From contig OZ025263.1 of NCBI GenBank assembly GCA_964019135.1, positions 33,768,133 to 33,832,132 on the forward strand: DNA of 64,000 bases, given 5' to 3'. The stretch comes from Arenicola marina. Its lineage: Eukaryota > Annelida > Polychaeta > Arenicolidae. Below the pieces are notes generated by a model. It did not search any database. It was given only the letters and a program-made list of their open reading frames with translations, and was not told where the DNA came from. The translations under genes and the position numbers were made by a program. Below, in pieces: positions 27,296-49,064 of the stretch (positions are counted from its first letter, which is position 1; each line of letters opens with the position of its first letter).

Positions 27296-27298
27296 CTC

Positions 27299-30035
27299 AC
27301 CCTTCTACACGCCTCTCCCGCACGTCCTCACCCTTCTACACGCCTCTCCCCCACGTCCTCACCCTTCTACACGCCTCTCCCCCACGTCCTCACCCTTCTA
27401 CACGCCTCTGCCCCACGTCCTCACCCTTCTACACGCCTCTCCCCCACGTCCTCACCCTTCTACACGCCTCTCCCCCACGTCCTCACCCTTCTACACGCCT
27501 CTCCCCCACGTCCTCACCCTTCTACACGCCTCTCCCCCACGTCCTCACCCTTCTACACGCCTCTCCCCCACATCCTCACCCTTCTACACGCCTCTCCCCC
27601 ACGTCCTCACCCTTCTACAGGCCTCTCTCCCACGTCCTCACCCTTCTACACGCCTCTCTCCCACGTCCTCACCCTTCTACACGCCTCTCCCCCACGTCCT
27701 GACCCTTCTACACGCCTCTCCCCCACGTCCTCACCCTTCTACACGCCTCTCCCCCACATCCTCACCCTTCTACACGCCTCTCCCCCACGTCCTCACCCTT
27801 CTACACGCCTCTCCCCCACGTCCTCACCCTTCTACACGCCTCTCCCCCACGTACTCACCCTTCTACACGCCTCTCCCCTACGTCCTCACCCTTCTACACG
27901 CCTCTCCTCCACGTCATCACTCTTCTACACGTCTCTCCCCCACGTCCTCACCCTTCTACACGCCTCTCCCGCACGTCCTCACCCTTCTACGCGCCTCTCT
28001 CCCACGTCCTCACCCTTCTACGCGCCTCTCCCCCACGTCCTCACCCTTCTACACGCCTCTTCCCCACGTCCTCACCCTTCTACACGCCTCTCCCCCACAT
28101 CCTCACCCTTCTACACACCTCTCCTCTACGTCATCACCCTTCTACACGCCTCTCCCCCACGTCATCACCCTTCTACACGCCTCTCCCCCACGTCCTCACC
28201 CTTCTACACGCCTCTCCCCCACGTCCTCACCCTTCCACGCGCCTCTCTCCCACGTCCTCACCCTTCTACACGCCTCTCCCCCACGTCCTCACCCTTCTAC
28301 ACGCCTCTCCCCCACGTCCTCACCCTTCTACACGCCTCTCCCCCACGTCCTCACCCTTTTAACGCCTCTCCCCCACGTCCTCACCCTTCTACACGCCTCT
28401 CCCTCACATCCTCACCCTTCTACACGCCTCTCCCCCACGTCCTCACCCTTCTACACGCCTCTCTCCCACATCCTCACCTTTCTACACGCCTCTCCCCCAC
28501 GTCCTCACCCTTCTACACGCCTCTCCCCACGTCCTCACCCTTCTACACGCCTCTCCCCCACGTCATAACCCTTCTACACGCCTCTCCCCCACGTTCTCAC
28601 CCTTCTACACGCCTCTCCTCCACGTCATCACCCTTCTACACGCCTCTCCCCTACGTCCTCACCATTCTACACGCCCCTCCTCCACGTCATCACCCTTCTA
28701 CACGCCTCTCCCCCACGTCCTCACCCTTCTACACGCCTCTTCCCCACGTCCTCACCCTTCTACACGCCTCTCCTCTACGTCATCACCCTTCTACACGCCT
28801 CTCCCCCACGTCCTCACCCTTCTACACGCCTCTTCCCCACGTCCTCACCCTTCCACGCGCCTCTCTCCCACGTCCTCACCCTTCTACACGCCTCTCCCCC
28901 ATATCCTCACCCTTCTACACGCCTCTCCGCCACGTCCTCACCCTTCTACACGCCTCCCCCCCACATCCTCACCCTTCTACACGCCTTTCCCCTACGTCCT
29001 CACCCTTCCACAGGCCTCTCTCCCACGTCCTCACCCTTCTACAGGCCTCTCTCCCACGTCCTCACCCTTCTACGCGCCTCTCCCCCACGTCCTCACCCTT
29101 CTACACGCCTCTCCCCCACGTCCTCACCCTTTTAACGCCTCTCCCCCACGTCCTCACCCTTCTACACGCCTCTCCCTCACATCCTCACCCTTCTACACGC
29201 CTCTCCCCCACATGCTCACCCTTCTACACGCCTCTCACCCACGTCCTCACCCTTCTACACGCCTCTCTCCCACGTCCTCATCCTTCTACGCGCCTCTCCC
29301 CCACGTCCTCACCCTTCTACACGCCTCTCCCCCACGTCCTCACCCTTCTACACGCCTCTCCCCCACGTCCTCACCCTTCTACACGCATCTCTCCCACGTC
29401 CTCACCCTTCTACGCGCCTCTCCCCCACGCCCTCACCTTTCTACACGCCTCTCCCCCACGTCCTCACCCTTCTACACGCCTCTCTCCCACGTCCTCACCC
29501 TTCTACGCGCCTCTCCCCCACATCCTCAACCTTCTACACGCCTCTCCCCCACGTCCTCACCCTTCTACACGCCTCTCCCCCACGTCCTCACCCTTCTACA
29601 CGCCTCTCCTGCACATCCTCACCCTTCTACACGCCTCTCTCCCACGTCCTCACCCTTCTACACGCCTCTCCCCCGCGTCCTCACCCTTCTACACGCCTCT
29701 CCCCCACGTCCTCACCCTTCTACACGCCTCTCCCCCACGTCCTCACCCTTCTACACGCCTCTCCCCCACGTCCTCACCCTTCTACACGCCTCTCTCCCAC
29801 ATCCTCACCCTTCTACACGCCTCACCCCCACGTCCTCACCCTTCTACACGCCTCCCCCCCCACATCCTCACCCTTCTACACGCCTCTGCCCCATGTCCTC
29901 ACCCTTCTACACGCCTCTCCCCCACGTCCTCACCCTTCTACACGCCTCTCCCCCACGTCCTCACCCTTCTACACGCCTCTCCCCCACGTCCTCACCCTTC
30001 TACACGCCTCTCCCCCACGTCCTCACCCTTCTGCC
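27299..30035. repeat. Large 31-bp minisatellite, about 88 copies
   Basis: A 31-bp unit, CACGTCCTCACCCTTCTACA followed by CGCCTCTCCCC, is repeated for 2.7 kb; a degenerate tail continues to about 30130. It lacks stops in all three plus-strand frames, and since 31 is not a multiple of three each frame cycles through a 31-residue repeat, producing false frames of up to 966 codons. Rare variants mark higher-order copying: the 2-bp-shorter unit CCCTTTTAACGCC at 28355-28364 recurs at 29128-29137, 773 bp later, which equals 25 units including one short one, and neighbouring variants match too. Confidence 0.97.
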
Positions 30036-30756: not shown

Positions 30757-30862
30757 ATTTGCTTCTAGATATTTCTATACGTGTTTATCATCACAACACC
30801 TCGCGAGATTACTCGAGATTAGTCGTAGACATTCCACGAAATCAGCTTATATTAGGGGCCAA
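30757..30862 (+). CDS. Semaphorin exon 1 seen: start of sema domain
   Basis: Acceptor TTTCTTTGCAG, donor GTAAGT. Begins inside a codon (two bases), so a coding exon ending in phase 1 lies upstream. Contains YSRLVVDIPRNQLILGAK, the first strand region of the sema propeller. Confidence 0.9.
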
Positions 30863-33800
30863 GTAAGTATTATTCGTATTCTCGGCCGTTTCTCGTCAAT
30901 AATCGCCATTGTGTTGGCCTAACAGTATGGCGATTTATTGGTCGAACACTATTCTTTACTCATAATATTATAAATATCCATCATTACTGTGGCATTTCTC
31001 GATGAAACATCGCATATGGAAAGCGCCCTCACCTCTACTACCCTATTTTAAAGATCGATGTATTATCGCCACGTAAAGAGGCTGAGCGAGCATATTATCA
31101 TTGTACATTATATAATAATCCACGACCGTTTTAATCTTCAGAAATCAATTACTTCGACTGGACGCGAAAAGTTTACGTTCGCTACAAACGGTTGAATGGA
31201 CGCCGAAGGAGATGGAGATGAAAGTATGTCAGGCCAAAGGTCAATCGTTGCAAGACTGTCAAAACTACATCCGGGTGTTGATACTGCAAGAGGACCAGAT
31301 CTTTGTGTGCGGCACGAGCGCCTTCTCCCCGCAGTGCTCATGGAGGCCCGTGAGTACTGAGCAATTATTATAAATATACGTATATACACTGCCATTTTTT
31401 ATACGTCCTTTAGTGAATTTCTGTTATCAAATATATCCTAATTATCGTTCATCGCTGTCGTTATGAGATGTTTGTTTTCATTTCCATTCAAGACAAGCTC
31501 ACACTTCCCACGGATTCAACTGTGTTATTTGTTACCTTAACTCAATCTGATACAAAAATATTTCTACAATTTTAGTCGTTAAGGAGTAGTCACTATTAAA
31601 GTTTGGTATAGAAGACGTACTGGTGAGTAAATTCGTCAGATTGCGTCAGTTGCAGCTACCTATTCATGCGCTTAGAACCTGACCGTCTGTATTATATTAT
31701 GGATAACACGTTAGAGCAACATTAACCTGATTATAATCTTATTAATATAACAGTTTTTACATATTGAAATTAAGACGTGTTTTTCTGCTTGTATCTGGTG
31801 CATAGGCCAATGACTTGGCGGTTGTGGACGCATGGATTCCCGGCGTCGCCAAGTGCCCGTATGACCCTCAGCATAACAACACAGCGGTGATGACGTCAGA
31901 GGGCAGTCTGTATAGCGCCACGGTCACGGACTTTACATCCAGGGACCCAGCGATCTACCGGATGCTGGGGCCGTCCAAGCCACTGCGCACTGTGCAGTAC
32001 AACTCCCGGTGGCTCAACGGTGAGGCAAATCAAGCCTTATATTGAAATAGGGCCGTCCCGATAGCTCAGTGGGTTGGAGGGCTCGCCCTGAGTGCTCTGG
32101 CCAACCGAGAGCCTAACGGCACGTGGATCGGTGGTTCGCGCCCCGCTGTGGTGATGCATGTCTGTATAATCGCAGGATAAAGTTCCCATGTCCTCCTTCG
32201 GAAAGAGTAGGCGGTTACCCCCCGGGGACATGGCTCCGCTCTTCCCTTCCTTGTCTCATTGACGCGATATATGCCCAGTGTAGGTTCAAGCGTCCTGAAT
32301 ATACAATCAACCTACAAATCGTATTCAAATCAATGAGGCACAGTTAGCAAGCAGGCAGAGCTGCAGGTCGCGGGTTCGATCCCAGGCACCTGCCTCTGGG
32401 GCAAGTTTCACCCCACCCCACCCATGGTCTGCCATGGTCAGCCTTCATGCGCACAAAAGCGGCATATCGTAAACGCAATTGCAATTAATATAATGAAGGC
32501 AATATTAATTAGTTGTCGTTGTCCTCTGTGCTGGTTGGTTCAATAGCTTAGCCTTAGCAGGGCGGATCTAGGAATTTGCATACGGGGGGGGGGGGGGGGT
32601 ACTCTCTGGCAACTTGCCACCGGGGGGAGGTGCTGTCTGAAAACTTGCGACGGCGCGGGGGGCTCGAAAAACCCTGCTTTTACGGTGTATGTTCAAGTTC
32701 CCAAGGGGGTGGGGGGGTGCAACCCCCTACCCACCCCCTAGATCCTGCGTAGTGCATAAGATAATGTAAGCAGCTTGACAATCGCATAACCTGACACTAT
32801 TAATGCAATCAGTATGTCCGTCTCTCATACATGTTTGCTTTCGATAATGTTAGTTACATATTAACTATTGCAGAACCCGAGTTTATATCTTCCTATGAGA
32901 TTGGGGACTTTATCTACTTCTTCTTCCGGGAATCTGCTGTGGAGTACATCAATTGCGGAAAGGTGAGGGCCATACAACCGAGTCTGTTACTATCGATACT
33001 TTGCTAATGTGGCAAAGAACCGATTTATGTATTCCTTAATTAAGCTCCGAACCTTTAGCCACCGCCTCCTTGTTGACCACTGCCTGTGGCAGTGTAGCGA
33101 GTGCGGCTTGTTAGATAACGAAGTCCACTTTGTGCTTGAATGTCGCTTGCACAATAATCTCAGGGAGAGCTTAATCCCACAGTATGTTTGGGGACTACCG
33201 GATAAACAAATTTTTTACCACTAGTCATGTCACAGAACCGGAAATTAAAGACCAGATTGTCTAAATTGGTTTATCTGGCCAGCAAGATGACAGAAGCTGA
33301 ATAGTGTATTAGTGTATTAATGTATGAACCCGCCACATGTCAGTGTGTTGCATTTTTTCAACACGAGGGCCTCGGGCTCTTTGGTGATTTGAAATACACT
33401 TCTTCATAACGGTTTAATAGTATAGACTTCATTGGTCGCTTTATTGGAGGACTTGCGAGGGTCCTCCTCTATCCCTTGTGACGTTACATTGATCTTGAGT
33501 GACCGCATTAATAATTGGGAACTCATTGTATTATTGAAGAGTTCATTTTATAAATATGCTACAAATGGCATCAATTAAGATACATGTATTTTCTGTTCTT
33601 TTTCCTACAGAATATTTACTCCCGGGTGGCTAGGATCTGTAAAGTAAGTACACATACAAATTGTCAAAGTAGTTCATCCACTTATTTTTCTTTGCGTTTT
33701 TGCGATGGGACGAAATGTTACATTGACGAAAGGCTAAACATTTAGTTCAATTTTGACAATTTGGGCAATTTGCGATAAAGAAAGAAGGCTTTCTTTATTG

Positions 33801-36800
33801 AAAACTGTATAATGAGTGATCATATATATATATAAGAGCTTGTCATTATCTTTGATTTTCAAGTGGAGACAATAGGCTGCAGTAAAAATAGCTCCTAGCT
33901 TTTGATACAGATAATAACTTATGGGTGTACAATTTCAGAGAGACACCGGCGGTAACTAATGGGTGTACAATTTCAGAGAGACACCGGCGGTAACTAATGG
34001 GTGTACAATTTCAGAGAGACACCGGCGGTAACTAATGGCTGTACAATTTCAGAGAGACACCGGCGGTAACTAATGGCTGTACAATTTCAGAGAGACACCG
34101 GCGGTAACTAATGGCTGTACAATTTCAGAGAGACACCGGCGGTAACTAATGGGTGTACAATTTCAGAGAGACACCGGCGGTAACTAATGGCTGTACAATT
34201 TCAGAGAGACACCGGCGGTAACTAATGGCTGTACAATTTCAGAGAGACACCGGCGGTAACTAATGGCTGTACAATTTCAGAGAGACACCGGCGGTAACTA
34301 ATGGCTGTACAATTTCAGAGAGACACCGGCGGTAACTAATGGCTGTACAATTTCAGAGAGACACCGGCGGTAACTAATGGCTGTACAATTTCAGAGAGAC
34401 ACCGGCGGTAACTAATGGCTGTACAATTTCAGAGAGACACCGGCGGTAACTAATGGCTGTACAATTTCAGAGAGACACCGGCGGTAACTTATGGGTGTAC
34501 AATTTCAGAGAGACACCGGCGGTAATTTATGGGTGTACAATTTCAGAGAGACACCGGCGGTAACTTTCTGTTGGAGGACAACTGGACGACGTTTGTCAAG
34601 GCGCGTCTAAACTGCTCGTTGCCAGGGAAATATCCGTTCTATTTCAATGAGATCCAGGCATCCTACTACCTAGAGGAGGAACACATGATCTACGCGGTGT
34701 TCACCACATCCCCGTGAGTTTGCGGTCTTTAAGCAAGTTTAGTGTTTAGCTTATCCTTGAATATAAGCATTAAAAACTGCCGTTGAAATACCCGATCGAC
34801 TGCCTCGATCCAAACCTGTGACGTCATTACATGTTGCGGTTCCAGACGGGGTGGAATTTCACTGAACCGGATCATTCCATTAGAAGGATGTGGCATGGAG
34901 AAGTTGGGCAGGATGGGTGGGGGGGAGGGGCGTGGGGAAGTGGAAGAGGGTGACGGGGAGAGGTCGTGGGAAAGTGGGGGAAGGTGGTGGGGGAGGGGGG
35001 GGGGGCGTGGGGGACGGTGGCGGGGGGAGGGGCGTGGGGAACGGTGGCGGGGGGAGGAGCGTGGAGAAGTGGGGGGTGGGTGGTAGGGCGAGAGGGAATC
35101 GCGAATGCCAAAAAAACAGCAAAACAAGTTCGAACATTTTAAACCGCGATTCAAGTTTGTATACATTTTATCGACAATATTCGCTTACAGGTAACAGATG
35201 TCGGGCAGGATGGTCATGAAGATTGTATATCTTGGGTCAACCCAACTTTGTGTAATGTTTGTTCTGCGTCTCCCTATGGCCCACCCATAGCGTTTCATCT
35301 GGATGTCAGGGGGCCGCCCAGGTAGCTCAGTGGGTTAGAGCGCTCGCCTTGAGTGTTCTGGCCACCTGAGAGCCTAACGGAACGAGGATCGGTGGTTCGA
35401 GCCCCGCTGTGGCCATGTCTTTGTGGTCGCAGGATAAAGATCCTATGTCCTTCTTCGCAATAAGTAGGGGGTTAACCCGGGGACATGGCTCCACTCCAGT
35501 GGTTAAAGCGTCCTGAATATACAACCAATCATCCGGATGTCATTGTCGATTAATAGCGCCCCGCAAGTGTTAATGTTACCCTTTAAGCCATTTGTACCGA
35601 CGGTAATACAATTTGAACTTATCTTACCCTGTATTATTTTTCAGAACCAGTATTTACGGCACAGCGATCTGTACCTTCAACATGAGCGCCTTCGACGAGT
35701 CGTTCAATGGTCCCTTCAAGTACCAAGAGGGGTCCCAGATGGCCTGGAGCCGAGTTCCCAACACCTCGCCCTTCCAGGTCAGAACTCGATCCAGATTGGT
35801 AACCAGGGGCCGGAACACTCTTGGTTAAGAGGGCGGGGGGATTTCCGATCTCTGCGATTGGCATCCAGATATTCTTGGAGGTTCGCGATTAGTTGTTGGC
35901 AAATCAAATTTTGGCGATCGTTATCCGTACAATTCCTGGTTCAACGCGGAAACCCTTTCCCTATGTACCGCCATCCGTTATAGCAGTCTGCGAGATTCGC
36001 GATTCAGAGGGGGTACCCCCCCCCCCACGCCGGATAAGGGGCATGCGTTTATAATGCGCCGTAAAGTCCGATGAAATCATCATCCGTTATGTACCCCTAG
36101 ATTTGTCGTTTTTATTTATTTACGTAACTACCCCAAGCACTCCATGCATCCCACAATCCTTGGAGGCAACCTAAGTACTTAACTAATCAAGGTACTACTG
36201 AGCGCAGGAATAAACATAACCCTTTCAAGCACGCAAACAATCTCCTCTCCCGTGTAAACCGATTGAAATTTTGGTCACAGATTTTACCATGATATTCATG
36301 CCTATTTGCCTCTTTCCGGTGACGACAGTGTGGTGGCCAGTCCGATGGTAAGCGTCCCCTTGAGAAGAGTTTCCCAAACACCACGCCCCGCCAGAGACTC
36401 CTTCTGGACGCACAGAAGTATCAAATCATGGACCAAGCGGTGGAACCCATTAACCAGCGCCCTCTACTGGTGGCGGAGAATGAACGGTACGAAACCAAAT
36501 TTGAAACGGCAAGCCCGAAAACGCAACTGAAAGCGGTTGTGTCGTAGGCCAACGTCTTATCCTAACACCTGTGCATTATGACTCTGGGAATGAGCGGTAC
36601 AGGACAGTGTCATTTAGAAAACAACCGTCCTTTGTTTCACTGATTGAATTAGTTTCTTTAGCCTCCAACATGTTTCGTAGAACTACAAGGTGTCTAAACG
36701 GGGGGTGGGGGGGGGGTCCAGTGTCCAGTGTCCGATTTTTCGCAATTCTCATTGTCGAATGTCGATTTTTCACGACGTCCCGTGCCGATTTTTGGCTAAG

Positions 36801-39800
36801 TTCAGTGTCGTTTAAAAAACAAATCTGTGTCGATGTCGCTTTTTTAGATACTACGTGTCGGAATTTGGGGGTCAATGTCGAATGTCGATTTTTCCAATAT
36901 GCCTGTGTCGCGTGTCGCCATTTACCCTTCCAGACCCCTACTACAACAGATATGATCATGATTATTTACTCTGGTACGAAGTTTGAAAATGTCGTTTAGG
37001 TATTTCTCAGGGTCATTTTAACCCAAGCGTTGATTGTTGATAAAAGAGTACCATCTTTTTTAATAATGTCCCATACGTTATGATGGCCGAAACGACAATG
37101 AGAAAGAAATCTTCATGAAAGTTTCACTGCTCTCCCTATATTTCAAAATCTACTATCGCATGAATTTGCTACATAATGCCAATTGAAAGCGTTGGTTTCT
37201 TACAGTCGATCACAACATTATATATATTATATAACATTTACACTACTCTATCGCCTCCGCTATAGGTACACTCACATCGCCGTGGACACCGTCATCACGA
37301 AGCACCATCAAAAGTTCACTGTCCTCTTCGTTGCTACGCTGGAAGGCGTCGTCAAGAAGCTGGTGCAGTTGCCAGGGCAACGCCAGATGTGCGTGGTGGA
37401 GCAGATTCACATTTTGCCGGAGCAGAAAGTAGGAGCGGTGCGCTCATTCGAGCTGTCGAAAGAGGAGGTGAGCTATGCTTCTACAAGGGCGGATCCAGGG
37501 GGGGGTGTCCAGGGGGTCCGGACCCCCGCCCCCTCTTTTTAAGGAAGAATGTCGTGACTCCCCCCCCCTCCGCAATTTTGTTCAGAGCCTCTCCCCTCGG
37601 TTGCAAGTTTGGAGAACCCCCCCCCCCCCCTTTTTCAAATTCCTGGATCCGCCCCTGCTCTAATCAGTAAACTATCCATATCTTAACTTGAAAACTGTTT
37701 TCATTGTAACATTCTTTATTTTCTCGTTTTACGGGAATAAAAAAATATATAGATGTTATAGAACAGAGGAGGGGGTGGAGACCACTGTCGGACCACATGA
37801 ATATGTTTACTATCAACTATTTATATCCAGCCGTATTTACATTTTAGGAAGTTTCACAGGAGATGAATGTTTGTTTAATTTTTTTAAAACTTTTCTATCG
37901 TTTGGCTAAAACCGGGTGTTCTGGTATTCTTTCGCCAGGCGGCGCTGTTTGTGGGAACCGAAGATCGCGTCTACAGAGTTCCTATACAGCGATGTGATCG
38001 GTTTACCTCCAAAGTGTAAGTCTTATGATGCTATATGATTTGTCACTTATTAAAGGACGTATCTTATGCAAGCCTGCTTGGCATTCACCTTATTATTATT
38101 GCAAGCTTCTTTGCCGCTTTAGGGGCCGGCCCGGTAGTTCAGTGGGTTAGAGCGCTCGCCTGGAGTGTTTTTGCCACCGAAAACTTCCATATCGCGTTTG
38201 CAATCATCCTTAAATCTCAGGCTTCGGTCGTCTAGTTGGCCTTTTGCCGGTGGCAAGCTCGCCATGGAATATGTCCGTTGGGATAATATTCATCATGCAT
38301 TGGATGAACGTGCCCTAGCCAGCGATCTAAGACACATTTGTTTGATGAGGGCCAGAATCCTTGGCTAAGACCTCAGCATTCTTTAACATTGTGCCTAAAA
38401 TATTACACGAAGATTCACATATAGCCTGTTGCCTTTCTGTTTGCAGCACCTGTCTGAGCGCTCAGGACCCATATTGCGGTTGGAACAGCGATTGGCAGCA
38501 ATGCACCACGGTGCCCAAGACACTGCCAGCCCACAACTGGCATCAGAACATCAGCTCCTGCCCCATACTTCAGTACCCAGGTAAGGAGACAATAGAGGGA
38601 TCAACCACTATAGCGGCACGCTGTTTGAATAATTAGGCCGGTCCCAGCGACTCGTATGAATAATTAGGCCGGTCCCAGCGACTCGTATGAATAATTAGGC
38701 CAGTCCCAGCCACTCGTCTGAATAATTAGGCCAGTCCCAGCCACTCGTCTGAATAATTAGGCCAGTCCCAGCCACTCGTCTGAATAATTAAGGCAGTCCC
38801 AGCCACTCGTCTGAATAATTAGGCCAGTGCCAACCATTCGTTTGAATGATAGGCCGGGCCAGACTATTCGTCAATTATCATAATGCAGACGTGTATGCTA
38901 CGTTGCGGGATACGGTCCAATACGGGTACGTTATGACCAGAAACACCTGGGCGCTAATGCTTTGGAATTTTCTAACAATTGGTCCCAAAAACGTTCTATA
39001 AAACTGATTTGGACCTGAACAAAAAGATATATGGTGATGATTTTTGGTGAAATATGACTGTATTTGAACATATTTTAATGATTGAACTATTTGACTCTCT
39101 GTGATAAATTCACAACGCTAACATCTCATAACTCTCCCCCACCCCCTCCACTCTGCAGTGAACGGTGGGTGGTCGCTGTGGGGTGCATGGGAACCCTGTG
39201 AACAGCTTGGCTACCCTCGTGGCGGCGACCAGTGTATGTGCCGGCGACGCACGTGTTCACAACCGGAACCAGTATTCGGGGGTGAAGACTGCTGGGGCCG
39301 CAGTGTGGAGGTCTCCAACTGTACCGGTAAGTAACAGCGGCGTGTAAACTGCTTCATTCGTGCTCTTAATATTTTACCCCTTTTTCACTTTTTGTTGTGC
39401 AAAAAAAGTTGACTTTTTTTTCGTCGTAATGAGTGTAGGGGCATTTTACTTAAGCTTATTTGTCAGCACAAGCCGAATTCTTGGATTTGCTGACTAAGGT
39501 TTTTTTGTTGTTATACGAAGTGTTATATTTTGTCTTTAAGTTACGTCTTTCATAAGTGTAACACGCATTATTATAATTTCTGATTTATACGTGAAGTTGT
39601 TTCTGAACCAGTAGACAATGGTCTTTTGTTGTATCAGTATTAGGTATTTTTGTAGATTTCAGTTTTTTTTATCTATATAGGCTTCTATGCAGTGTTTAAT
39701 GAGCTTTATTTATGTGTCATTTAATCTTAGTTCTGTAATGCATGACGTATTTAAGCCTAATTTTATTGGTAGCTAGGGATGTTAATTCTTAGCGTAATAT

Positions 39801-42800
39801 TATTGCTGTCTGCCTTAGTCAGTGGTGGATCCATGGCGGTTGCACCCTCCCAGTCGGTTATGTATGATCTTCCTCTAAAAATAAAGGGGCTGCGCCGTAT
39901 GCACCCCTGTTCCGCCCCCCCACCCCCCACCAACGCTGAGTCGCGCGTCGCAATCTCCCCGGATCCACTTCTATTTATGGCTTTATTTGGTTATTCAACC
40001 TGTGTACATTACAACTTCTTATTTCGGTATATTTATTTTACTTAATGACTTCTTATCGTTTGTGTTTTATTTCTGTTACTTTGCTTTCCGTCGATGTTGT
40101 TTGTTGTGTCCACGTGTCGTGCTATGTGTGACCTTCACCTTGCAGTCAACGGCGGGTGGAGTCAGTGGTCCCCGTGGTCTGGTTGCTCGGCAACCTGTAA
40201 CGTGGCCGTCAGGTCGCGCCACCGTACCTGTGGCAACCCCGAGCCCCAGTACGGGGGCCGAGTGTGTGTAGGGTCCGCCCGTGATGAGGAGTATTGCTAT
40301 GACAACCCTGAATGTCCCCCTGGTAAGACAACGGGTCATTTCAAAGGCTGAAAAAAAGTAGAAGCAGCCTCATCATAACGCCATCGTGTAAGACAATTCA
40401 TGGCTATAGTTAATGGCATCCATGATCTACAGTTTACGATGCAGCCTCCATCTTCCAGAGTAAAGGTTGTTGATAATATCCTAACAATGCTATGCTTATC
40501 GATGTCAGATTATGATCAAATTAGTGCCGCATTAATATTATATTTTGCTTGTCAACTTTTGTGTCATTACATTAGGTTTCACGCTTTCATATGTTCTCGT
40601 ATTTGCCTAGGTCTAAAACTTGTTTGCTATAAAAGCCCTCCCACCCCCCCCTCGTAACTATTTATAAGGGAAGTAAGGACCTAGTATCCCCTCATTTTAA
40701 GCTTTCTTTGGATGACTGAAGGCAAATTGCCGCAACCTCCACCGTCACCTCACTTTTGATTAATTGTCAGGCAGTGTTATGCCTAATTACCCTCTCCCCT
40801 TTAGTTATTTCTGTTGCAGAGAACTGCCTAATTACCCCCCCCCCCCGACTTTAATTGTTTCTCCGGCCGATAAATTATCTTGTGACGGATAAATGCCCAG
40901 CCCCTGCCTTTAACTTGATGCGGTAGATAAATACCTGATTCCCTTAGCCTCTGCTTTTAATAATATATGCCTACCCCCTCCCCCTCCCCCCTCTGCCGTT
41001 AACTATTTCTACGGTAGATAAATGCCTAATAATTATCCCCCCACTTTAACTATTAACTATAAATGCAAAGGCCCAATCTCCCTTTTTCTCCGAGAGGTAG
41101 CGCCCCCGTAACCCGTTCTTCGTCGTGGCCTCCTTCAGATCCCCCCATCGAGGTGCCTGTGGACGGCGGGTGGTCGGCGTGGGGACACTGGTCGCCCTGT
41201 GATCGTGCCTGCCAGGGCGGGGTGCAGACCCGGAAGAGGGCGTGCACCAACCCCCCGGTCCTCTGGGGGGGCCATGACTGCGCGGGTAACGACGAGCAAT
41301 GGCGGCGCTGCAACAAACACGCCTGCGAAGGTAATTAACAGTTAAGCAGCCAAGAGCTCGTTTCTCCATGTGTCATTGTAATTCCTGGAAATTGTGCAAC
41401 ATAGCTAACGGGTAAGGTTTAAATAGACGATAAAATGGTTGTTATCGTTTCGTTATCATATGTACATTGATCAACTCTCAACCACTCATGTCATTTTATC
41501 ATTGCCGGTCAATAGCACTTGTGCTAATGTTTATTGTTGACTTGTATACCGACGTTAAATAAAATTTTACCTTATCTTCTGCATATACAGTTATATTCAA
41601 CTGATTATTAATTGTATGCATTGTCTGATCTAGTTAACCTACATATTGGCATTCAAACTATATTGTTTGGAAGTAAATTGACGCAGTGTCTGCCCCTGTT
41701 GCCCCTATATAATAATATTTTTTAATTAACTAGACGCATAGCTCGGCATAGCCAGGCCACGGTGGTGACACACTTTGAAGTATTGAAATCTTAAAGGGTA
41801 CCTGGTGTCAGACCCCACCTAAACAGGGATGTCTCCGCAAGAAATTAGCAAAATGAGGGCATGATATATATGTCCGTCACATATGTTAATTTACCCTGTT
41901 GACAGAGGTCCGTCGATCCAGCGATTGGACGCCGTGGATTAAGGTCAACGTCACGAAGGACGGTCATTTTGAGGAACGCTTCCGCTTCGTCTGCAAGGCC
42001 AACGTAGAGGCCTCCGATGAGCTGCGCATCAGCCAACCGAAGACCGACTTCCGCTTCTGCTCGGCCAGCAACCCGCAGGACTGTCTGAAACCAGGTGAGC
42101 TAAGCGTCGGGGGGCGTCCCGGGGACGATGGTGAGGACACCCCAACGGAAGCCGCTCTCCGCGCGCTGTGTGCGGCTCATAGCGCCGAAGGTACGAAGGG
42201 AGATAGCGTGCATCGACCTCCAGCGGCTAAACATAATGGCGGTGTCGATGGCGGGAAGGGAAACGAGATCATTAAAGGGAGCCGGAAGGGCAGCGGCTCG
42301 GGGAGGCGGAAGAATAAGGGGAATAAGAAGAACAAAGCTAAGTACTCGGGCAAACATAACGACGTCATAATTTCTGACGCCGGAGCGGTGACGCCGGAAG
42401 ACGCCCGCATGGTGCGCTCCCCTATCTGGCAACATAAAAAGACGTACACGGGCTTCTGTGGGTGTCGCGACCTAGGCATGATGCGTATGTGTAGGCGATG
42501 TACAGTTCCCCTGAGCTGATGAATATATTGGATAAAAACTTACAATCAGGTGAGTGAGGTCCAAGTGCGTGAATTACCAGGTACTGCTGCAATAAAAGGT
42601 TTAAACAAGTTAATAACCAGGTAGGAAAAAAATATCTGTGTTATTTGACAATTACTCGAATCAAAGTAATTTAAGCACGTTATTTATTATTACTGGATTA
42701 AAAAAAATCAGCCCTATAAAGAGTGCTAAATACTAATAACTCAAATAGTAGTTGGTTCATTTAGGCAAAATTAAATATTGAATTAAACTTGCTAATCGTC

Positions 42801-45800
42801 TATGCAATAGACCAAGAAAAAAGTGGTCTTAAATATTAAAATCAAATTGTATTATTGCGATACTTAAATGTCGGCGTTAGGTTAGGCGACGTTTACATAG
42901 AAACTAACCTCGACACACTTACAATTAATAAACACTGCACAACTTGAAGTCACATGGTCAATATTTGATTGAAATTCCAACATGATCAACTGCAAACAAA
43001 ATAGGCAAATTATAATATTCGTTGTCGTGCTTTGCAATTCCATCCAAATTACTATCTGCTGATAAACTTTAAACTGCTGATACTGGTGCTTTGACTGTTC
43101 CGCAAGATGGATCTGTCAAAGCGTAATGTGCCGTCTGGTCTTAAGTGTCTCATAGCGAGTCCAAAAACGAAAATGGCGACTTCTCGGCGTATGAAAGTGG
43201 CTAAATGTTGCTTATTCAAAATTTACCGCGGTTATTGTTGTACTCTTTGGCTGAAAGTGTCGTATGGAACTTTTACAGGCCAGCCCTTACATGTGTTCTC
43301 GACGGTCGTTACAGCTCTGGCTTTCTGTGGTAGACGCTAACTGTCGTGTCGTACTCTTTTGGTGGTTTGGCGAAATTTCTCTCCCGATCGTACTGTTGTG
43401 GTGGTTGGTGTTGTAAATGGCTCCTGTATTGCTTAACTGTATGCGCCAGTCTGTGTATCCACGTGAACTCCCGCCCGCTGTATATATATAACATACCAAA
43501 GTTATTCGAAACGATGTCTGTTGAATGTCATTATTATTATCAAAGACTTATGCTTTGCGTTCATAACATGCATTAGAAGCTGACTTAGATTTAATGATAT
43601 CCAGGGGAATATGCTTTGCAATATCAGTCAAATATCGCTGTGAACAGTATTATAATTTGTACAAATGTATATTGAGTCAAGAGGACATGATTTATTTATG
43701 ATCGTAGAGATATTTCCGCAATTTAGATCGATATATTCGCGAAGAGATTCACAACGTAACAAATGTGAGCAAAACGCGAAAAAAGCCAACTGATATTATT
43801 ACATCTATATATTTTGAAGCTGAACAAATATAGGAGATATATTCTCATTGCTTTATTTATGAGGTTTACATGAAATTGGTTCACTTGAATTTAGCATGGT
43901 CGCTAACTTCATAAATGATAAATACATCATTTATTAAAAAAAAATATATATATCAAATGATAATATATATACATGTACGTATGCAAGCTGTCACAGATAC
44001 AAATATTTCAGATAGATCAGCCAAGATTTTGCACTGCATTTTAGGGATATGCCTTATGAAGTTTCAATTATTTTGACAAATACTATTCACGCCTAAAAAT
44101 ACTTGTAATAACTACATACCATACACTATCAATTATTGTGTTCACAAACGCATAGCGCCGTACATAGCAAACTACCTATCAGGACCGCGATTGGAGCTAG
44201 ATTAGGTTAGAAGACCTAATTTGCCTGTGCCAAACTCGTATTACTCATGTTACTACGATACCTAAAAAAAAATAGAATCATATGTTATAGATATGTAAGG
44301 AAACCGATAGAATAGGTCACATCGAGTCACTCTGAAGTTCTTTATGTAGGATGTGGATTAAGCTTAAATATTTTGAATGATACGCAATGCTTTTTCGATT
44401 TCCTAATGATTACACAAACTGCAACATCAGTTGCAGACCTGTACTATATAGTGCAGACCTGTACTATATAGTGCAGACCTGTACTATATAGTGCAGACCT
44501 GTACTATATAGCCTTCTCATTTGTCCTCCTTTGCCTGAGCCTACCTAAAGGATATAAACGCGGGTCCACATAGTCATGCTGGCATAGGTTAACACGATGA
44601 ATGATGTTGATATTCCCATAAAATACCCATCTTAAAACAGTATTATGACAGATGGTGAAGAAAATATACATACAGCTAATGTAGCCAAAGTTAACATGAG
44701 GAGATTATTCTGATCGATAGGATAACTCAAATCTGTACCAACACATGACATAACGTTTATGATTCGTTTATGAAGTTTTGAACAATGTGCAAACCGACTT
44801 AACGTGGAGTTAGAGCCAACACATTTTGTTATATTTTGAACGGTACGTCGACAGACGCTGTACAGTTGATACTTTTCTGCGATCAATATATATAAAGGGA
44901 ATCTCATCTGACACTTGAAATGAGTGAGCTTCTACTTGTAATTTCTGTATCGTTGTTATGAATTATTGGGGCGTCATCCGTGTGTTGAATCGTATTTGTT
45001 CTGTTAAAATTGCTTACTTTTTGTGATGCTCATTGGCCAAAATTTGATGTGTTCACTGTAGGAACACTCACTTGTTATTGTACGTGATTGTCGAAGTCAT
45101 TTACATTTGTAACACAGTTAACCGTTAGGACTAAGAAGCCAGGATGTTATGTTAACCGTTAGGACTAAGAAGCCAGGATGTTATGTTAACCGTTAGGACT
45201 AAGAAGCCAGGATGTTATGCGCCTTGAACCTTGACTAAATAGTGATGTCTAAAATAAATGTAGGACAAACATTGCAACCCATGTCTATCACATTCCCCAT
45301 ATGACGTAAATTGTGTGCGGAAATCTACACGAATCACGTTGAATTATACATCGCAATTACATCCTGGCTTCAGCCCTTTTTCTGTGATGCACTTCTTGGA
45401 TCGAGTAGCCAGCACAGTTGTTAGCTGACACCAGTGGCAGTAGCCTTCACCGTATGTACGCCACTTGAGCTCCGGTCAATAGCAGGCATCGTGGGTGGGG
45501 AATCCCATGGTGGGCTGTTAAAGCAAGGACACCATCTCCTTATGTTGAATAACCCAACCGTTCAGACATAGCGATTGCTTGATTTAACGTTCAATTCTCT
45601 TATCCTTTGCGGATTTCAATTTTTCGAGTTTTTTTATGCAACGTGTTCTGCTTTGGGTGTAATAGAATTAACTTTATTAAAACCGTCTAGTTTATTGCAA
45701 TCAATTGTTCTGAAATATTACCGCCTTACTGCCCCCCCCGCCCCCTCGATGCTTTATATTGACTGGCGCTTTCACGTTAACATCTCACGAATATAGTGAC

Positions 45801-48800
45801 GTCACTGTCGAAGTTCTGTTGTTCCTGTGTCACGTGATACCCTATGCTTTTTGTAGTGTTGTGGTGGAGGGGTGTAACACTGTCTCACCGTCTTTTAATG
45901 AAACTATAGCTATGTTATCCTACGCCATGTTAGCTATTCTAAATGGCAGAGGATTTTCTAGGCTGTCATTCCTTTCTTGCTTACGAAATTAAATCTATTT
46001 TCGAATTAACGTCCAGACTGATGACGTACTTCTGCTCTCAGTTATTTCACTTTTTATTGGCCTCACTTTGTTTACATTCTGAAACCACAGCACAATATAC
46101 AGTATTGTAACTCTTGGAGTGGTACTATGTTGTTGGGCTCTGTAACGCTTACGTCGTACACATCCTCATAGGACGAACCTGTCCATTGTTGTCCCCGCTC
46201 TTTTATCTGTTGTCATACACCCAGTTTGTTGTACTAGTAAGATGGAATATAATAGACAGTATTTTGTGTTTGTCGATTGGTCTAGATCTCTCATGACACA
46301 TAGCGCCTAACTTTAATGTTGTTTATAGTCACTAGATATAAATGCTTAATTAATACAATAATCTATAATTCTTTTCACACGGTGTTACTGCTGATAATAT
46401 TTTGTTTATTTTTATGGACTTTTTACTAGCTATTAAGGATAAACCCATTTTCCTGAAAGCAATACATATTGATATATATATTCCTTCTGTATATATTTTC
46501 CCTCCCCCCTTTTCCTTGTTTTCGTTGAGTAATGAAACCGACCTTGCATTACCTAATTATTTTGGGACAGGTATGATTCATAGCACAATTTAGACGATTT
46601 TTTATGTTTTCTTTAATCTCGTCTGCTTCTCACCACTAATAGTTATTGTTGATTTTGCCAAATTTATCATATATCTGTAACGCAGATCTTGTTTTATCTT
46701 TTCGTGTAAATTGGTACGTAACTGTTGATTTAAGAAAAATAAAGAACTTCTCAACGAATTAAATGCGTCCTCTTTATCTCTGTACTGGGTACGCCAATAT
46801 CATTAATAATTGCTATCGCACGATACTGTTTGCACAGATTGCAATCGGAACCAAAACAAACGTGCAAAAAAGCAAACTTCTGCCCAAGATTTAAAACAAA
46901 ATCCGATTCTGGCTTTAGATTGTGCTATGACCTGTCTGAATGCGATATGATATGCTTTTGCACCTAATCTCTTTCGCTTCAGCGTGTGCTAATTGTGTGT
47001 GGTGTGAATTAACGTGCACCAAACTCCACAAATGAAGACACACACCATCCTGGTTTCACACGCCACAAATTTTACAAAGTGCAAAAGATTCTTGTTTCTC
47101 ACGCCAATAGTTACAAGAGTGCAAAAGAACGACGTGAATATGACGCGTGAGCATAAACTAGACAGCGCTCCGTGTGACTAAAGATACCGACTTCAGGGAA
47201 AAGTTACGATATATGTAGTCCAAAACAGATCCGAGGCGTAATTTGCGCGTATAAAAATCTCCCCCATTTTTTTTGCCAGAGAGTCTGGTTACGTGTCAAC
47301 TGCATTTGATGGGATAACGTGATGCAGTAACTTACGTGCTACTTCGAATTACGTCCTGTCTCACACCTACCGGTCAATCAATGACCCATAAATTCCCTCG
47401 CACGAGTTACTGTCAACATAATAGCTAAACCAACTTGTGCATCACCAGAAAAAAACGAATGTAAAAAAACGCGAATTATATCTAACGTTATATGATCTTA
47501 AAATTGCATATCGAGCTCTTTCCCGCTAAAACTAAAGAAGTCCAAATACAAATAAGAATTAGTCCTTGAATCATCCAAGATTTCTTTTGTCTATATTCCA
47601 CGCATACCAGACTGCCAATGGGGTCTCTTACCCCTGCCCGTGATATCAATTTACCAGAGGTTTTCAACTTAGTGGTATACGTCATCAGTTTGTGTGCTTC
47701 GTGATGCTTGGGTATAAGTAGCAGTGCCGCGACAGAGTTCTGTGGTGTCCCGGGATAGAAACTTTTGCCACATCACAGCCGAAACGGCGATGTTTATTAG
47801 GTTTCTGAACAAGTGAGTTTTCTGAAAATTGTGATATATATCTCTACCGGGCTTAGTTTTGGCGGGAAAGAGCTCGATATGCAACTTTAAATTATTCGCC
47901 ATCGCATGGGGAAAAAAATGAATGCGGGAGTTCGCGTAGTAGACAATTTTGATGAGATACGTGTAACGTTATTGCATATCTAATCTTTTTTGGCAAATTT
48001 ATAAATAGAATGCATAATCGGAACGTGCGTTAAATGGTAGAGATAGGTGCATTTTCGCTTGGTAAATATGTTAGGATATATTCAGTGATAATATAACCTG
48101 CTTGTGATATGTAACACGCGAAGTGTAAATAATTAGTAACTGACGTATCAATAACGTCATAATGAACGCGGAAGCAGCGTATATGGATCACGTGTCCACA
48201 TTGTCGCCATGGCCGCGAAGTGATGACGTCACCCGAGGACTTAAAGCAGTGGCGCTTTAACCAGTGACGACGTCATTTGATGAAGTCCACATGTCAGTGA
48301 TGATGTCAGATAGTGCCGTACGTACATCTATGGCGTTCAGTGTGAATGATGACGTCATCGGATGACTTACCTACACAGCTAAGGCGTTGGGTACGTATGA
48401 GTGATGACGTCATGTGATGACGTACGCTGGTCTTCCAGGGCGTCATTCTGACATGGATGGCAGCTGGTCGCATTGGGGGTCGTGGACTCACTGCGACACC
48501 CTCTGTGGCGGGGGTCAGCAGACCCGGGAGCGGCTCTGTAACAACCCGCCCCCGAATGGACACGGACATGACTGCAACGGTCACGAGAAAGACGTGAAGA
48601 TCTGCAACGCCCACCCCTGTCAGGGTTAGTACTAAACCTAAAACGGGATTGAGTCGCCCTAAGTACCGAAGCTTTGTGTAGTAATTAACAGACGGGGGTT
48701 AAGCCGTCATGTAATCATTTTAATCCTGCGTACGAAGATGGCTTCCATTTGCCCTTTTGTTATGTTGAGTTATATCACACGGAATAAATGTTGATGAAAC

Positions 48801-49031
48801 TTACCAGTGATTCGTAGGGAAACAATAGCAGTCGGATATTTTGATTGGTCTATCAATGTGCGGCGAGCGACTTTGGCTGAACGTTGGTTATAGTTTTATC
48901 GCAAATGCTAAGTATTCCCTAAGACACGCTTGAAGTTATTGGCCTTGATAAGAAGTTAATTATTTTTTATGACAGGTTATTTTGAGATAATTTCCACCTT
49001 AATGACGGCCTCATCACGATTGCCCTTCCAT

Positions 49032-49064
<33 letters not shown>

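Follow-up and report, generated by a model that had tools for sequence, protein, structure and literature searches.

A minisatellite across a splice junction of a SEMA5-type semaphorin gene in Arenicola marina, and junction arrays elsewhere in the same genome

How can a gene be spliced correctly when one of its acceptors is present 17 times? This question is raised by a 64,000-nucleotide stretch of the genome of the annelid Arenicola marina (assembly GCA_964019135.1, contig OZ025263.1, positions 33,768,133 to 33,832,132 of the forward strand), called the window here, in which 17 copies of a 38-bp unit (33919-34564) lie in tandem across the intron 5/exon 6 acceptor of a SEMA5-type semaphorin gene (Sema5). 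An initial annotation of the window had described this array, and the observation was confirmed. Unless a locus name is given, positions are those of the window, and own-genome searches were carried out on the 867-Mb assembly of 762 contigs, in which the window lies on contig C18.

The acceptor TTTCAG/AGAGACACCGGCGG was found 17 times at a spacing of exactly 38 bp, with the first exon bases running from 33939 to 34547, and Tandem Repeats Finder (TRF) placed the array at 33915-34565 (period 38, 17.1 copies, 98% match). Each unit consists of 20 intron bases, including the 3' splice site, and 18 exon bases, which agrees with the earlier description of 20 intron bases plus six codons repeated 17 times. 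The exon part has the same letters in 16 of the 17 copies, copy 16 carrying a silent AAT instead of AAC. The intron part occurs in three versions: TTATGGG in copies 1, 16 and 17, TAATGGG in copies 2, 3 and 7, and TAATGGC in the remaining 11; outer copies that are alike and inner copies that differ are a usual pattern in minisatellites. The AG is kept in all 17 copies, so every one of the 16 decoys is intact, and copy 17 alone continues into exon 6, as had been claimed, its first exon base being 34547. There are therefore 16 extra acceptors ahead of the productive one. A donor-like GCG/GTAACT had been predicted 13 bases after each acceptor; this holds for 16 copies, with copy 16 reading GTAATT, and the same motif is also present inside the real exon 6.

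33915-34565, + strand: 38-bp minisatellite, 17.1 copies, over the intron 5/exon 6 junction (TRF; acceptor spacing).
33919-34526, + strand: the 16 decoys, all with an unaltered TTTCAG followed by 18 exon bases and all leading to a premature stop; their exon parts start at 33939 + 38k (k = 0 to 15).
33949-33957, + strand: donor-like GCG/GTAACT of copy 1 (score 4.8).
34527-34564, + strand: 17th unit, the sole exon-flush copy, with the productive acceptor and exon start 34547 (exon homology).
33915-33920, + strand: left TAACTT, presumed founding slippage end on the intron side.
34561-34566, + strand: right TAACTT, in the exon.

The array locus was found once in the assembly. An own-genome DNA search, which skips simple repeats, gave two matches, one being the locus itself and the other a locus on contig C7 (L002), which was rejected as a relative of the array, as it is an unrelated GAGAGACAC minisatellite. 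A protein-coding variable number tandem repeat (VNTR) was also rejected, since 38 bp is not a multiple of three and the reading stops after RDTGGN. With a unit that spans an intron/exon boundary, a splice signal that is kept and an outermost copy that is the real exon, the array shares these features with the 'mirage' minisatellites described in amphioxus.

The junction is a genuine one, as the initial annotation had proposed; copy 17 opens an exon with homology to semaphorins. This exon (34547-34713, coding RDTGGNFLLEDNWTTFVKARLNCS...) matches 12 distinct solved semaphorin sequences at E <= 0.001, the best being Semaphorin-2A (5.7e-16); exon 6 alone gave no Pfam match at 0.001. A Pfam Sema search of the genome gave seven matches, two of which are exons in the window (35649-35795 and 37240-37452, both above the cut-off). 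When eight stretches of the gene were scanned with Pfam, four contained TSP_1 and one PF23260 'SEMA5B-like TSP1', while three, including exon 6 and the exon with the hydrophobic segment, had no match at 0.001; the hydrophobic (transmembrane) segment was recognised by eye. By tblastn with a SEMA5-like query, the exons follow each other on the + strand from 30801 to 50365, and the exon junctions were read by eye. The gene therefore has a Sema domain followed by thrombospondin type 1 repeats (TSP) and a transmembrane segment, which is the SEMA5-type architecture, and its earlier assignment to the semaphorins was supported by the solved-semaphorin matches, Pfam and tblastn.

30757-50497, + strand: located SEMA5-type exons (tblastn, Pfam, junctions by eye).
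From 30757, + strand: Sema part of the gene.
33611-33643, + strand: upstream 33-nt exon, NIYSRVARICK, donor AAA/GTAAGT, whose partner has to be found among the 17 acceptors (weak tblastn match, E 0.37).
34547-34713, + strand: Sema-domain exon, the sixth located, 167 nt, donor CCCC/GTGAGT (homology to solved semaphorins).
39159-49640, + strand: TSP exons.
About 50090-50497, + strand: transmembrane and cytoplasmic exon.

When the upstream exon was joined to each copy in turn, an open frame was obtained from copy 17 only. Copies 1-14 read RDTGGN and then a stop, and from copies 15 and 16 the reading ran on through 41 and 44 codons of the sequence read before meeting a stop. The premature stops from all 16 decoys lie 103 to 754 nt ahead of the end of exon 6, in line with the earlier claim that splicing to the upstream acceptors is unproductive. 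Messages with such premature stops are expected to undergo nonsense-mediated decay, and this would apply to the decoy-spliced messages, as none of their stops lies closer than 103 nt to the end of exon 6.

Splice-site scoring failed to separate the decoys from the real acceptor. With a weight matrix built from the 15 other acceptors of the gene (genuine sites score from -0.2 to 14 when left out one by one), the real site scored 3.75 and the other 16 copies 2.5-3.75; the "fifteen or more" equivalent acceptors of the initial annotation are thus 16 by local score. The donor-like GCG/GTAACT scored 4.8, compared with 4.2 to 10.6 for the 15 genuine donors of the gene. The intron before exon 6 is 903 nt long when spliced at copy 17. 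At copy 1 it would be 295 nt, which is also the length it would have if 16 units were removed, and the following intron measures 931 nt.

The explanation we favour, with a probability of roughly 0.7, is that the array is a mirage minisatellite which formed by chance across the 3' splice site and is near-neutral, splicing using the flush copy. The intron contains the sequence TAACTT at 33915 and the exon contains it at 34561, 646 bp (17 x 38) away, with a third occurrence at 34485 within the array. In a single-copy ancestor the outer two would have been 38 bp apart, which is a classical slippage setting, and the 38-bp stretch between these intronic and exonic direct repeats could have been duplicated by replication slippage or unequal exchange, after which the array could have expanded and been homogenised internally. 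The anatomy of the array points to such an origin. TAACTT repeats acting as the slippage ends would set both the 38-bp unit length and the 18 exon bases per unit, and the whole number of codons in the unit would then be a coincidence. As a tandem duplication over an exon edge leaves one complete junction flush with an intact exon, the gene would tolerate the array. The main partner of the exon 6 donor would be the acceptor that lies nearest to it across the exon, that of copy 17 (giving the 167-nt exon), the remaining 16 copies would stay intronic, and decoy-spliced messages, ending prematurely, would be removed by decay.

Similar arrays were found at other exons of the genome. For this, 94 other exon loci were sampled: sample A comprised 65 loci (30 kinase, 30 carrier and 5 semaphorin), sample B 20 carrier exons from the carrier hit list, mostly short matches (L090 was dropped as the same gene as L073), and sample C 7 ABC and 3 ion-channel exons from hit lists. 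Many sample A loci look intronless, repeated or foreign, so sample A gives no rate per junction, and as some genes are paralogs the loci are not fully independent. Copies spanning a junction were present in 7 of the 94 loci, at acceptors, donors or both; five of these are among the 29 loci of samples B and C (L077, L088, L095, L099 and L103), and two, from self-comparison, are in sample A (L006 and L063). Outside the sample, L073 was found as a 91-bp-spaced ladder of hits on contig C1 in a search for mitochondrial-carrier exons. Its carrier is putatively SCaMC-like, and its 19 donors, 91 bp apart, are all intact, including all 18 decoys, the first copy being the real exon end.

L073 (G000:C1:2034700-2037300), mitochondrial carrier: 19 donors GTGAGTGAC, 91-bp unit of 82 exon and 9 intron bases.
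L063, carrier: 16 donor-like copies, including the real one.
L077, carrier: 3 acceptors upstream and 8 donors downstream of a single exon.
L088, carrier: 2 acceptors.
L103, ABC transporter: 5 donors.
L099, ABC transporter: junction copies on both sides of a single exon.
L095, ABC transporter: about 3 acceptors.
L006, semaphorin: degenerate 43-bp x 35.

The junctions (30 exon and 8 intron bases) were aligned to their flanks, with 500 shuffles each that permuted two-base blocks. The scores of L006 (24), L088 (44), L095 (31), the L099 acceptor (30), the L099 donor (52) and L103 (67) were each reached by none of the 500 shuffles, and 28 other junctions of the Sema5 gene scored 9 to 16 in the same alignment. 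L004 of sample A, with two copies, was kept apart as a partial case: its score of 26 beat all 500 shuffles, but the second donor is mutated and BLAST self-comparison gave no hit. In L077 the decoy signals are intact (7 of 7 donors and 2 of 2 acceptors). Junction-spanning arrays are not rare in this annelid genome.

Several candidates were not counted. L079 scored 18, which was reached by 13 of 500 shuffles, and had 9 bp in common with its array, without exon bases. In carrier loci such as L057 the 38-bp repeats follow the end of the coding match, with no splice site noticed in the unit; L075 and L082 have arrays beside the exon or at the C-terminal end, with no splice junction inside; and L017 has one 17-bp repeat. 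In L082, a 134-bp repeat of 2.1 copies (614-898) lies over the coding end of the carrier gene and the sequence after it. Similar carrier copies beside 38-bp repeats were seen in L056, L057, L059-L062, L064, L065 and L069 (intronless-looking in L056, L057, L064 and L069), and these may travel on a mobile element.

Is the array at the Sema5 junction by anything other than chance? Its existence is far beyond chance, but its position on a junction is not. The five arrays of the gene cover 6% of its sequence, and random placement of five arrays covered a mean of 1.8 of the 30 listed junctions; 82% of the 20000 trials hit one junction or more, and one is hit in reality. Targeting to the junction is therefore not needed. 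Self-copies with >80% identity over at least 20 bp were found only at the exon 6 acceptor among the 30 junctions (compared with 30001-51000).

TRF coverage was profiled for 92 of the 94 sampled loci (L019 and L024 were dropped as short), the ends of coding matches being only approximate exon ends. Outside the coding match, coverage was 15-17% at 101-400 bp, 13.0% at 41-100, 11.8% at 21-40 and 8.8% at 1-20; inside, it was 3.3% in the outer 20 bases, 1.3% at 21-40, 0.5% at 41-60 and 0.1% deeper. In samples B and C (29 loci) it fell from 12.3% immediately outside the match to 5.3% in the outer 20 coding bases and to 0 past the 40th. Arrays thus extend to and across junctions but seldom lie further inside exons. 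This is the distribution expected if arrays originate anywhere and persist wherever the exon is kept whole by a flush junction.

Mirages are a known kind of array from amphioxus. They have been reported in Adh3, the globins BflGb6 and BflGb9, troponin C and PGBD5, with regular splicing (PMC3087553, PMC3902484). Like the Sema5 array, they are tandem repeats over an intron/exon border, at an acceptor or donor, with many copies keeping AG or GT. Their units measure 10-72 bp in Adh3 and 150-160 bp in BflGb6 (PMC3087553), their length is reported to be unstable, and BflGb6 haplotypes have 6 and 3 copies, compared with 17 in the annelid Sema5 and 19 in L073. Polymorphism of the Sema5 array between individuals is a prediction of the initial annotation. 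Duplications of exon 4 and minisatellites in intron 1 are known in earthworm metallothionein, also an annelid gene, and are not described as junction arrays in the excerpts consulted. Among the papers listed from the open-access literature, judged by title and the start of the abstract, none was found to report mirages in annelids, and annelids are apparently a new phylum for them.

Such arrays offer a natural test of how one of many identical sites is chosen by the spliceosome, since little but position sets the decoys apart. Constant use of the flush copy would mean that sequence counts for less than position across the exon; otherwise the length of the array would be a fast source of expression variation. 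Their presence in annelids, which are distant from amphioxus, suggests that mirages are a property of genomes rich in minisatellites and not of a single lineage. Junction arrays also warn annotators of false or missed exons.

In acceptor arrays as in donor arrays, the exon is shortest when the flush copy is used. Where the flanking introns are long, as they are here (903 and 931 nt), splicing is reported to prefer the sites that lie closest to each other across the exon and, in the case of 5' sites, short exons (PMC9225289), so that copy 17 in Sema5 and the first donor in L073 are predicted to be the favoured sites. Several observations weigh against exclusive and harmless use of the flush copy. 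The real acceptor (3.75) scores below 10 of the 15 other acceptors of the gene. The inner decoys carry CTAAT, which is by eye closer to the branch-point consensus yUnAy than the TTTAT before the real site. Use of the first decoy would give a 295-nt intron, near the 250-nt border quoted for intron definition, and in human alternative 3' splicing the upstream site is reported to be preferred on the whole, a bias that weakens under exon definition (PMC9225289). Mirage copies could also act as cryptic splice sites (PMC3087553). Finally, decoy signals have been lost at some loci: in L006, 31 units read ACGG and 2 ACAG; in L063, 5 of 16 copies read GTGGGC; and the single decoy donor of L004 is mutated. 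This could mean that decoys are sometimes harmful.

A rival reading, raised by the initial annotation, is that the array works as a copy-number rheostat: the decoys would be used appreciably and yield premature-stop messages, and how much of the semaphorin is functional would depend on the length of the array. The near-equal local scores of the 16 decoys, the premature stops and the general bias of human 3' splice-site choice towards upstream sites (PMC9225289) are all consistent with it, and there are human precedents. A 31-bp VNTR at the exon 13/intron 13 border of CBS, with a unit length similar to that in Sema5, is linked to enzyme activity, more repeats going with lower CBS activity (PMC5188458, PMC1395315); unlike the Sema5 array, it is described as non-coding. 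The 38-bp repeat in TERT intron 6 shares the unit length and shows a copy-number effect on splicing, at least 9 copies being needed for a non-functional isoform (PMC3948165), but it lies >1 kb from any junction and acts by RNA:RNA pairing. Another CBS variant, 844ins68, is a 68-bp junction duplication whose distal copy is the one preferred in splicing, with normal mRNA as the product (PMC2630376; the text there says donor, and a reference title there says 3' splice site); it differs from the Sema5 array in having one extra copy only. Against a rheostat, amphioxus mirages are reported without disturbance of regular splicing (PMC3087553, PMC3902484), and like arrays sit in carriers, ABC transporters and another semaphorin, which argues for a general mutational process rather than a device specific to Sema5. 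We regard a rheostat as unlikely, although it is the strongest competitor of a near-neutral mirage. A broader form of the idea is also rather improbable, namely that a considerable fraction of exons carries such arrays (5 of 29 in the hit-list sample), which would keep the spliceosome constantly choosing among equivalent sites, and that array length at genes such as Sema5 is a fast-mutating dial on functional protein through decay.

It is very improbable that the array is a step towards a new exon or intron, with units serving as pseudo-exons (an acceptor together with the GCG/GTAACT of a later copy) that could be recruited as proposed for amphioxus globins. Each unit does have an acceptor and a donor-like site, the latter at the low end of the genuine score range, and the model has been put forward before (PMC3087553). 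The lengths, however, would be 13 + 38k nt, and pseudo-exons of at least 51 nt starting at copies 1-14 hit a stop after RDTGGN. The 13-base micro-exons suggested by the initial annotation are not supported, since adjacent ones would be parted by 25-nt introns, which are too short for metazoan splicing; longer pseudo-exons from array units are possible. An assembly or sequencing artefact hiding a single true junction, as happened with one amphioxus mirage mis-assembled in a draft genome (PMC3087553), is likewise highly improbable given the three unit versions in an ordered pattern, a length of about 650 bp that long reads would easily span, and several arrays of the same type with differing units and lengths in this genome.

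Two other features of the window were noted. Upstream of the semaphorin gene, a 31-bp repeat of 88 copies (27296-30032) contains long stop-free forward frames, and in the next intron after exon 6 a tRNA-like stretch (AGGTAGCTCAGTGGGTTAGAGCG, 35318-35420), recognised by eye, is perhaps a short interspersed nuclear element. No Rfam family matched the window at its gathering score.

The mitochondrial contig (C762, 15942 bp) has the order cox1-cox2-atp8-cox3-nad6-cob-atp6-noncoding-nad5-nad4L-nad4-(rrnS)-trnV-(rrnL)-nad1-nad3-nad2, with the protein genes on one strand; the proteins were named by eye except cox1, and the rRNA genes were placed by position only. The annelid mitochondrial order has four differences from the bilaterian pattern, and a noncoding stretch between atp6 and nad5 is found in Clitellata, Maldanidae and Terebellidae (PMC2639372). 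The contig shows all four differences and the noncoding stretch, and its gene order places the host among annelids. Amphioxus was rejected as the host; its GFP family had no match in this genome either, which counts for little because control genomes gave none.

Among the kinase hits, those on contigs C443, C465, C504, C330, C652, C497, C609 and C232 contain in-frame TAA/TAG and no TGA, resembling a ciliate code, and these contigs are perhaps foreign to the assembly. Numerous kinase-domain open frames of roughly 250-380 codons were also seen on contig C3, at about 14-57 Mb.
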